Source of the DNA: Jiella pelagia
GTDB lineage: Bacteria > Pseudomonadota > Alphaproteobacteria > Rhizobiales > Rhizobiaceae
Direction: 5' to 3'
Assembly: GCF_026898155.1 (NCBI RefSeq)
Contig: NZ_CP114029.1
Location: 4,444,001 to 4,508,000 of the forward strand
Length of the DNA stretch: 64,000 nt
Shown in pieces: positions 50,145-51,817 of this stretch. The notes beneath the pieces were generated by a model. That model was given only the letters and a program-made list of their open reading frames with translations, did no database searches and was not told the origin of the DNA. The number at the start of each line of letters is the position of its first letter. The first letter of the stretch is position 1. Position numbers and translations under genes: made by a program.

Positions 50145-50627
50145 TTAGCGCTTCGAGAACTGGAAGGACCGGCGGGCCTTGGCCTTACCGTACTTCTTGC
50201 GCTCGACGACGCGCGAGTCGCGGGTCAGGAAGCCGCCCTTCTTAAGGACCGTGCGCAGGGCCGGCTCGTAGTAGGTCAGCGCCTTGGAGATGCCGTGACG
50301 AACGGCACCGGCCTGGCCCGACAGCCCGCCGCCCGCCACGGTGGCGACGATGTCGAACTGGCTGGAGCGCTCGGTGGCGACGATCGGCTGGCGCAGCACC
50401 ATCTGCAGGACCGGCCGCGCGAAATAGGCGGTGTAGTCCTTGTCGTTGACGATGATCTTGCCGGAGCCCGGCTTGACCCAGACGCGAGCGACGGCGTTCT
50501 TGCGCTTGCCGGTGGCATAGGCTCTGCCGAACTTGTCGAGCTTCTGGACGTGAACCGGGGCTTCGGCCTGGGGCGACGGGACGTTCGCTGCCGTGCCGAG
50601 ATCTTCGAGGGAAGAGAGCTGAGACAT
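50145..50627 (-). CDS. rpsI: 30S ribosomal protein S9
   Basis: 160 residues. [26 protein letters not shown] begins the S9 core (quoted in part), with [19 protein letters not shown] and the C-terminal [11 protein letters not shown] tail that reaches the decoding site. The start codon shares one base with the rplM stop (TAATG), so translation is coupled. Confidence 0.97.
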
Positions 50628-51091: not shown

Positions 51092-51148
51092 GGGTTGCCC
51101 CTGGATGTTGGTCTGGTTTTTAAGGCAAGCCATCCTTGGCCGCCATGC

Positions 51149-51170
51149 AAAAAGGGCGGCCCGCGGCCGC
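51149..51170 (-). terminator. terminator-like hairpin at the very start of the rplM-rpsI leader
   Basis: On the minus strand: GCGGCC-GCG-GGCCGC stem (6 bp) then CC and five U. It begins about 8 bases after the transcription start predicted from the promoter at 51185-51213. It could be an attenuator or autoregulatory site for L13/S9, or the terminator of the thioesterase transcript read from upstream; both are inference. Confidence 0.55.
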
Positions 51171-51184
51171 TCTTCCTGGGCGTC

Positions 51185-51213
51185 TCCATACGGTCACATC
51201 AGCCGGCTGTCAA
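51185..51213 (-). promoter_or_regulatory. strong sigma-70 promoter of rplM-rpsI
   Basis: Minus strand TTGACA (51213-51208), 17-base spacer, TATGGA (51190-51185): perfect minus-35 box with optimal spacing. The transcription start would be near 51178. Confidence 0.75.
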
Positions 51214-51273: not shown

Positions 51274-51287
51274 GGTATCATGATACC
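51274..51287. promoter_or_regulatory. 14-base perfect palindrome upstream of the rplM promoter
   Basis: GGTATCATGATACC is fully self-complementary and AT-rich for this genome. It lies about 60 bases upstream of the rplM minus-35 box. A dimeric regulator could bind here; none is known to me with this site. Confidence 0.3.
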
Positions 51288-51391: not shown

Positions 51392-51817
51392 TCAGCGGGG
51401 CGGAATCGAATAGGTCGCGACCGCGTGACACACCGTGGTGCCGTCGTGCTCGCCGGCGATTGCCACCTCGACCACGGCGAGGCGTTTTCCCAGTTTGAGG
51501 ATAGTTGCCTGCGCCACCAGCGTGCCAAGCGGCGGCTTGATCAGGAAGTTGATCGACATGTTGGTGGTGACCGCGAGCGCCACAGGCCCGATATGGGCGA
51601 GGATCGCGACATAGGCCGAGACGTCGGCAAGGGTGAAGAGCGTCGGGCCGGAAACAGTGCCCCCGGGGCGCAGGTGGCGATCGGCGGCGATCAGTTTCAT
51701 GGTGATGAAGCCGTTGCCGACCTGGTCGACGGAAAAGCCGCTTTCGGGCCCCATCACCTGCGGAAATTCGTCGCGCAGGAAAGTCTGCAGCTCATCGAGT
51801 GTCATCACTGGTTGCAT
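51392..51817 (-). CDS. PaaI-family thioesterase (hotdog fold)
   Basis: 141 residues. ADRHLRPGGTVSGPTLFTLAD contains the hotdog active-site region (quoted in part: RPGGTVSGPTLF), followed by VTTNMSINFLIKPP and the EVAIAGEHDGTTVCHAVATY strand. Acts on acyl-CoA; the chain is unknown. ATG 51817 (MQPVMTLDEL) was chosen. It is divergent from the enoyl-CoA hydratase gene, a common pairing in Rhizobiales beside rplM-rpsI. Confidence 0.86.
   Translation of the reverse strand: MQPVMTLDELQTFLRDEFPQVMGPESGFSVDQVGNGFITMKLIAADRHLRPGGTVSGPTLFTLADVSAYVAILAHIGPVALAVTTNMSINFLIKPPLGTLVAQATILKLGKRLAVVEVAIAGEHDGTTVCHAVATYSIPPR

Follow-up and report, generated by a model that had tools for sequence, protein, structure and literature searches.

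A conserved hairpin at the predicted start of the Jiella pelagia rplM–rpsI transcript and its probable double use as upstream terminator and mRNA leader

The window, as we call the whole stretch of DNA analyzed here, comprises 64,000 nucleotides of the Jiella pelagia genome (NZ_CP114029.1, forward-strand positions 4,444,001 to 4,508,000), and coordinates are given within it. Its minus strand carries rplM, the gene of ribosomal protein L13 (50627–51091; PF00572, E 2.3e-44; ATG 51091–51089), followed by rpsI, the gene of ribosomal protein S9 (50145–50627; PF00380, E 3.8e-48). Upstream of rplM and on the same strand lies a gene for a 4HBT (PaaI-like) thioesterase (51392–51817; PF03061, E 1.5e-13). 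The L13 of the window is up to 94% identical to homologues from Jiella, which are its nearest relatives among the best 80 of 572 loci.

The predicted rplM–rpsI promoter, also on the minus strand, is composed of the −35 element TTGACA (51208–51213) and the −10 element TATGGA (51185–51190), separated by a 17-base spacer; from this spacing, transcription is predicted to start at 51178/51177. With a weight matrix derived from the leader set itself, the promoter scores 15.0; the 99th-percentile score of shuffles is 12.0. It is absent from the list returned by an automated promoter scan of the region, because that scan demands T at the last −10 position.

Next to the promoter is a hairpin, H1 (51148–51178, minus strand), the predicted 5′-terminal hairpin of the transcript. 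Its upper stem pairs GCGGCC (51170–51165) with GGCCGC (51161–51156) around the loop GCG, and its lower stem pairs CAGGAAG with CUUUUUG and contains an A·C mismatch. The U tract (51149–51153) has the position of a terminator tail and also belongs to the 3′ arm of the lower stem. From the T run to the rplM ATG there are 57 bases (51148–51092). A second hairpin, H2 (GGCGGCCA..UGGCUUGCC; 51124–51144, minus strand), is present in predicted folds and corresponds to a second folding-energy peak in 74 family leaders. A Shine-Dalgarno-like AGGGG (51098–51102, minus strand) precedes the ATG, and AGGGGCAACCC recurs there in close relatives. An earlier note on this DNA had described the order of promoter, GC hairpin, five T and 57 bases to the rplM ATG, and we confirm all of it on the minus strand. 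Upstream of the promoter is an operator-like palindrome, GGTATCATGATACC (51274–51287).

The predicted first transcribed bases, CAGGAAG (51178–51172), are positioned to pair with CUUUUUG (51154–51148). As the U run pairs with these first bases, H1 begins at approximately +1 and the 5′ end of the mRNA would be paired from there. The earlier note had the hairpin begin about 8 bases past the start, which is correct for the GC stem but not for the hairpin as a whole. Folded alone (33 nt), H1 has an energy of −18.0 kcal/mol (z −2.72). In the 85-nt leader of the window H1 forms as well, yet the total stability is close to that of shuffles (z 0.20). H2 is present in the best fold of 69 nt; for 85 nt it is in the centroid and absent from the best fold. 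H1 has the stem of an intrinsic terminator (six GC pairs and a loop of three) and also its U tract, CCUUUUU lying directly 3′ of the stem.

For comparison, we collected rplM leaders, taken as the sequence upstream of the gene to a maximum of 300 nt, from the best 80 of 572 loci encoding a relative and from genomes of the family, class, and order to which the window genome belongs (no more than 30 loci used per genome set). Counts for the order and the class refer to leaders elsewhere in each rank. A match was obtained in 60 of 61 family, 136 of 142 class, and 55 of 61 order genomes. The total is 166 leaders including that of the window, of which 159 are distinct. In 112 of the 159 distinct leaders the best promoter outscores 99% of shuffles, an optimistic figure because the matrix was trained on 97 of them. 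Removal of redundancy (at least 75% identity over the first 70 nt) leaves 74 family, 28 order, and 28 class leaders. Folding energy was calculated in 40-nt windows against dinucleotide shuffles. Stem counts exclude leaders with a weak promoter or shorter than 45 nt (3 of 74 family, 1 of 28 order, and 14 of 28 class leaders), and the element was scored as a strong 6-bp stem with at least five U within the next ten bases. Pairs were counted by stem-anchored pairing in place of a MAFFT alignment of 14 close leaders, because the stem arms were misplaced in the alignment.

The hairpin is conserved at this position. In the 74 family leaders the folding Z is lowest at the −10 element (mean −2.35; 70% below −1.5) and flat from 100 to 15 bases upstream (means of −0.3 to +0.3). 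Further folding peaks, corresponding to H2 and a third hairpin, H3, are located about 30 and 65–70 bases on, with an unstructured stretch between. The order leaders have their deepest dip just past the −10 element (−1.54) and another about 100 bases upstream, at the palindrome (−1.20). In the class leaders the dip past the −10 element is weak (−0.85), and deeper ones occur about 90 bases upstream (−1.11) and about 35 bases downstream (−1.36, n=10). Among 71 family leaders, 45 have a strong stem with at least five U next to the promoter (shuffles, 1.5%), as do 9 of 27 leaders elsewhere in the order (shuffles, 1.0%); in the rest of the class the element is almost lacking (1 of 14; shuffles, 0.6%). 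Nearly every family leader having a strong stem has at least five U (45 of 46), with a mean of 6.5 U in ten bases, and by inspection the U tract extends past the paired bases in many leaders. The first paired base is found at a median of 8 bases past the −10 element in the family, corresponding to about +1 of the predicted start. Absence of the stem in relatives, which the earlier note had named as a refutation, is thus not what we see.

The earlier note had also proposed a search for covariation, and the lower stem does covary. In the upper stem, all six positions show at least two types of Watson–Crick pair in the family, among stems that had been selected for pairing. The lower stem played no part in the selection; in the family (n=46), pairing with its own partner gives −6.12 kcal/mol, compared with −4.00 kcal/mol with the partners of other species, and none of 5000 permutations is as good. 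In the order, 39 of 5000 permutations are as good (n=16). A previous version of the lower-stem comparison, in which the flanks were involved in the choice of stem, went in the same direction (−5.48 and −3.59) and is superseded.

If H1 terminates transcription, its proposed user is the thioesterase gene, which 35 of 74 family leaders have upstream on their own strand. A second terminator-like hairpin between the thioesterase stop and the promoter is present in 3 of these 35, and in those three the thioesterase lies 757, 802, and 949 nt from the −10 element; between a nearby thioesterase gene and the rplM promoter, no other terminator-like hairpin is found in the family leaders examined. The order leaders have such a second hairpin in 0 of 18 cases and the class leaders in 1 of 9. 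In the window, the terminator scan detects no other minus-strand terminator-like hairpin ahead of the rplM promoter.

The U tract follows the orientation of the upstream gene. GC-frame calls of orientation are unreliable; therefore, upstream genes were assigned by a thioesterase search, neighbour homology, and reading of open reading frames, partly by hand and after the hairpin flags were visible. The comparison excludes 7 of the 74 family leaders: three in which a divergent gene is more than 550 nt away (two with the element) and four that are unassigned (two with the element). Where the upstream gene is on the same strand, 39 of 51 leaders have both stem and U tract; where it is divergent, 5 of 16 do (p=0.0019 by Fisher's test, not corrected for relatedness). 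The exceptions are thus 12 same-strand leaders without the full element and the five divergent leaders with it. Strong stems irrespective of U are found in 40 of 51 same-strand and 11 of 16 divergent leaders. Among strong-stem leaders, a U tract follows in 39 of 40 with a same-strand gene and in 5 of 11 with a divergent gene (p=0.00016, likewise uncorrected). No significant effect of orientation is seen in the order and class together (8 of 30 versus 1 of 10, p=0.40, with 16 of 56 leaders excluded as unassigned).

Leaders of other ribosomal-protein genes, taken from the same family with related loci retained, in many cases have a hairpin in this position too. For rplU, 21 of 30 leaders have a usable promoter; the mean Z just past the −10 element is −2.65, with 16 of 21 below −1.5. 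Strong stems are present in 11 of the 21 (shuffles, 23%), and stem plus U tract in 6 (shuffles, 2%). We had tried rplU as a negative control and rejected it, as it shares the hairpin feature. For rpsT, with 28 of 30 leaders usable, the mean Z just past the −10 element is −1.63, 18 of 28 being below −1.5; strong stems number 15 of 28 (shuffles, 21%) and stem plus U tract 13 (shuffles, 4%). A conserved same-strand neighbour is found in 28 of 30 rpsT loci, and no clear conserved neighbour is identified among 30 rplU loci, a pattern that fits the orientation rule without proving it. The rpsB and atpH controls yield no promoter above the score threshold (0 of 30 and 0 of 29), and hence there is no strong-promoter control outside ribosomal proteins.

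The motif TTGAC-N18-TATAAG is hardly enriched in the 61 family genomes (94 matches, 0–4 per genome, versus 80 for the reversed control). In the 30 loci examined, however, at least 9 matches lie before rplM and 11 before rpsT, judged by open reading frame start or coordinates, and a few before an apparent rpmH–rnpA.

We propose that H1 is probably one element with two uses, ending the transcription that arrives from upstream and becoming the 5′ hairpin of the rplM–rpsI mRNA. Of the three ideas in the earlier note, this dual role, as thioesterase terminator and rplM leader, is the best supported: in the family no other terminator-like hairpin separates a nearby thioesterase gene from the promoter, and the U tract tracks orientation. 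The note had argued that so early a stem could not be an ordinary terminator, which holds for the rplM transcript itself but not for polymerases coming from upstream. H1 would be the intrinsic terminator of the thioesterase gene, sited just inside the next transcription unit; polymerases reading on from the thioesterase gene would cross the rplM promoter and halt at H1 and its U tract. For polymerases starting at the rplM promoter, H1 would make up the first ~31 nt of the RNA. Transcripts that read through would retain it as a 5′-terminal stem-loop, which might be expected to hinder 5′-end-dependent decay.

What is shown for H1 is its sequence, pairing, conservation, and position next to the predicted promoter; the start site, termination, and mRNA protection are inferred. 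Protection of the 5′ end, another idea of the earlier note, is compatible with a hairpin from about +1, with covariation of the lower stem, with the strong stems behind divergent genes (11 of 16), and with the like layout of many rplU and rpsT leaders. Purified B. subtilis RppH requires a 5′ end with two or more unpaired bases (PMC3997798), and pairing from +1 would therefore be expected to slow 5′-end-dependent decay in Jiella. H1 perhaps also sets a basal level of early termination of rplM transcripts, and some self-termination is plausible because in E. coli a fraction of rplM transcripts ends within the 5′ UTR.

Terminators and 5′ stabilising hairpins are each well known. A single conserved element doing both at ribosomal-protein promoters, if true, would show how a key operon is insulated among packed genes, and H1 would offer a simple test of whether a terminator that halts other polymerases is ignored by those that have just left a promoter. 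In the open-access literature we found no description of a conserved placement of a neighbour's terminator at the starts of ribosomal-protein transcripts, no description of an rplM leader of this kind, and no rplM start sites in Sinorhizobium.

An alternative, which we consider unlikely, is that H1 is solely a 5′-terminal stabilising stem-loop and that the U run, as the 3′ strand of the lower stem, stops nothing. Pairing from about +1 of the predicted transcript and covariation of the lower stem are what such a stem-loop would show; it would also account for the strong stems behind divergent genes, and for the similar layouts in rplU leaders, where a U tract follows 6 of 11 strong stems, and in many rpsT leaders. 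However, the U tract would then have no reason to be common behind same-strand genes and not behind divergent ones, or to be longer than the paired stretch in many leaders.

It is more doubtful that H1 is a promoter-proximal attenuator of rplM–rpsI, at which a regulated share of transcripts would end at about +30 and a factor (a helicase, L13, or another protein) would lift the block. There is a precedent in E. coli, where intrinsic termination in the rplM 5′ UTR restricts L13 and S9 and the DEAD-box protein SrmB relieves it (PMC6736130). In addition, the first 32 nt fold into H1 in all 13 leaders folded, those of the window and 12 close relatives. The 3′ arm of H1 can alternatively pair with the 5′ arm of H2 (GGCCGCC/GGCGGCC, window 51161–51138, minus strand), and this pairing is available also in relatives L002, L004–L007, L082, and L083 (as GGUCGCC/GGCGACC in L083). 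In folds of the longer leader, the 3′ arm of H1 pairs with the 5′ arm of H2 in 5 of 13, and H1 is kept in 8 of 13, the window among these. However, the sole competing partner found for H1, GGCGGCC (51144–51138), is 3′ of the U tract and would be made too late for the termination decision; a competing structure that regulates H1 is therefore unlikely, and we rejected an RNA switch deciding termination there. No competing structure that forms before that decision was found in the 13 leaders. A later rearrangement of H1 with the H2 arm in the longer leader is possible in these folding models. Moreover, an attenuator should have its U tract regardless of the upstream gene, whereas that of the family varies with the orientation of the neighbour.

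The earlier note had also suggested a site for autoregulation by L13 or S9, and we regard H1 as very unlikely to be the binding site of either protein. L13 leaders of rplM operons exist elsewhere, verified in E. coli and predicted in Firmicutes and Bacteroidetes according to one survey (PMC7247131). The idea is nevertheless poorly supported at H1, because rplU and rpsT leaders carry hairpins of unlike sequence at the corresponding position. All six upper-stem pairs vary among relatives, which also argues against a protein-binding site, as does the lack of an Rfam match. At gathering thresholds, Rfam gives no match at the leader in six relatives, and the only match in the window is a tRNA elsewhere; four weak matches below the gathering scores, obtained when the region was scanned permissively, were put down to chance. 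An L13 leader may be absent from Rfam, for example if it is group-specific. H2 or downstream parts of the leader seem better candidates than H1 for an L13 or S9 site.

A chance GC-rich palindrome beside a T run, without function, is extremely improbable and was rejected: a single terminator-like match is unremarkable in 4 kb, where the scan gives 4 such matches versus a mean of 3.1 in shuffles, and what exceeds chance is the position-specific conservation across genera, together with lower-stem covariation.

A stretch close to CAAGCAACAAGAAACGCC is highly conserved, by eye, about 50–70 nt before the rplM ATG in Rhizobium, Mesorhizobium, Sinorhizobium, and others (for example, leaders L030, L043, and L078), and is not seen in leaders of the Jiella group. 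It contains AAC-AAG-AAA, which we take to resemble the ARN motif of Hfq.

The palindrome upstream of the promoter is conserved across the class. Of 130 non-redundant rplM leaders, 123 match its consensus, GGTATNATNATACC, at 9 or more of 12 positions (shuffles, 6%), among them 24 of the 28 that come from other orders. Matches of this quality within 400 nt upstream of other genes are at background (rplU 1 of 30, rpsB 2 of 30, rpsT 3 of 30, and atpH 0 of 29). Genome-wide searches used the exact pattern only. Exact GGTATNATNATACC has a single match in the 5.95-Mb genome, at rplM. Of 61 order genomes, 21 contain it, with 22 matches in all, and 40 lack it. Thirteen of these matches are situated 102–225 nt from the start of rplM; the remaining 9 are comparable to the reversed control (7).

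About 7 bases beyond the palindrome we scored YAANNNNTTGATW, which we take to be the IHF consensus. A match of 8 or 9 of 9 is present in 67 of 123 palindrome leaders (shuffles, 6%), and the offset is 7 in 89 of 123. The match in the window is weak (7 of 9, at offset 9). The distance from the palindrome to the −35 element falls at 64–68 for 60 of the 66 family leaders; for the 37 leaders from the order and class it is near 44 (5 leaders), 55 (14), or 65 (10), with 8 elsewhere, of which 5 are at 48–52. A periodicity of 10.5 bp in these 37 spacings (one leader with negative spacing being dropped) gives a Rayleigh p of 1.8e-5, but counted per distinct spacing p is 0.20, which is not significant.

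The palindrome looks like the site of a dedicated activator and, linked to rplM and usually beside an IHF-like site, it may be a larger lead than H1. If functional, the palindrome and its usual IHF-like neighbour would suggest that Alphaproteobacteria have a regulator of ribosomal protein synthesis of which we found no description; no paper with the palindrome sequence was found in the open-access literature. As a broader and quite speculative idea, which we hold to be improbable as a whole, ribosomal-protein operons of this family might carry a built-in filter at their first transcribed bases: a terminator of the H1 type would stop the polymerases of the neighbour and pass most of those fresh from the promoter, so that output would reflect the operon's own promoter only. 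The hairpin passed would become the mRNA 5′ end, and at rplM the filter would be joined to the palindrome, usually near an IHF-like site, so that rplM–rpsI transcription would depend on a dedicated regulator conserved across Alphaproteobacteria.

Stem-loops at the 5′ terminus stabilise E. coli mRNAs such as those of ompA and papA. H1 is like them in lying at the very 5′ end, by the predicted start, with few or no unpaired 5′ bases, and unlike them in being followed by a terminator-like U tract. With ordinary same-strand intrinsic terminators it shares a GC stem, a short loop, a U tract, and a purine-rich 5′ flank that partly pairs with it. It differs from them in that the promoter of the next gene precedes it, so that H1 is the first thing transcribed, and this order is conserved. 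As in the L13 leaders of E. coli, Firmicutes, and Bacteroidetes, the rplM leader is structured; unlike for those, no alphaproteobacterial L13 leader is named in the accessible part of the survey (PMC7247131), and there is no Rfam match here. The closest comparison is with the E. coli rplM–rpsI leader, which, as described (PMC6736130), belongs to the same operon and has a terminator hairpin in the rplM 5′ UTR. There, the proposed terminator, hp3, is the last of three leader hairpins and has no poly(U), whereas H1 of Jiella is at about +1 and has a U tract, and, in further contrast to the E. coli leader, the U tract of the family is linked to the upstream gene.
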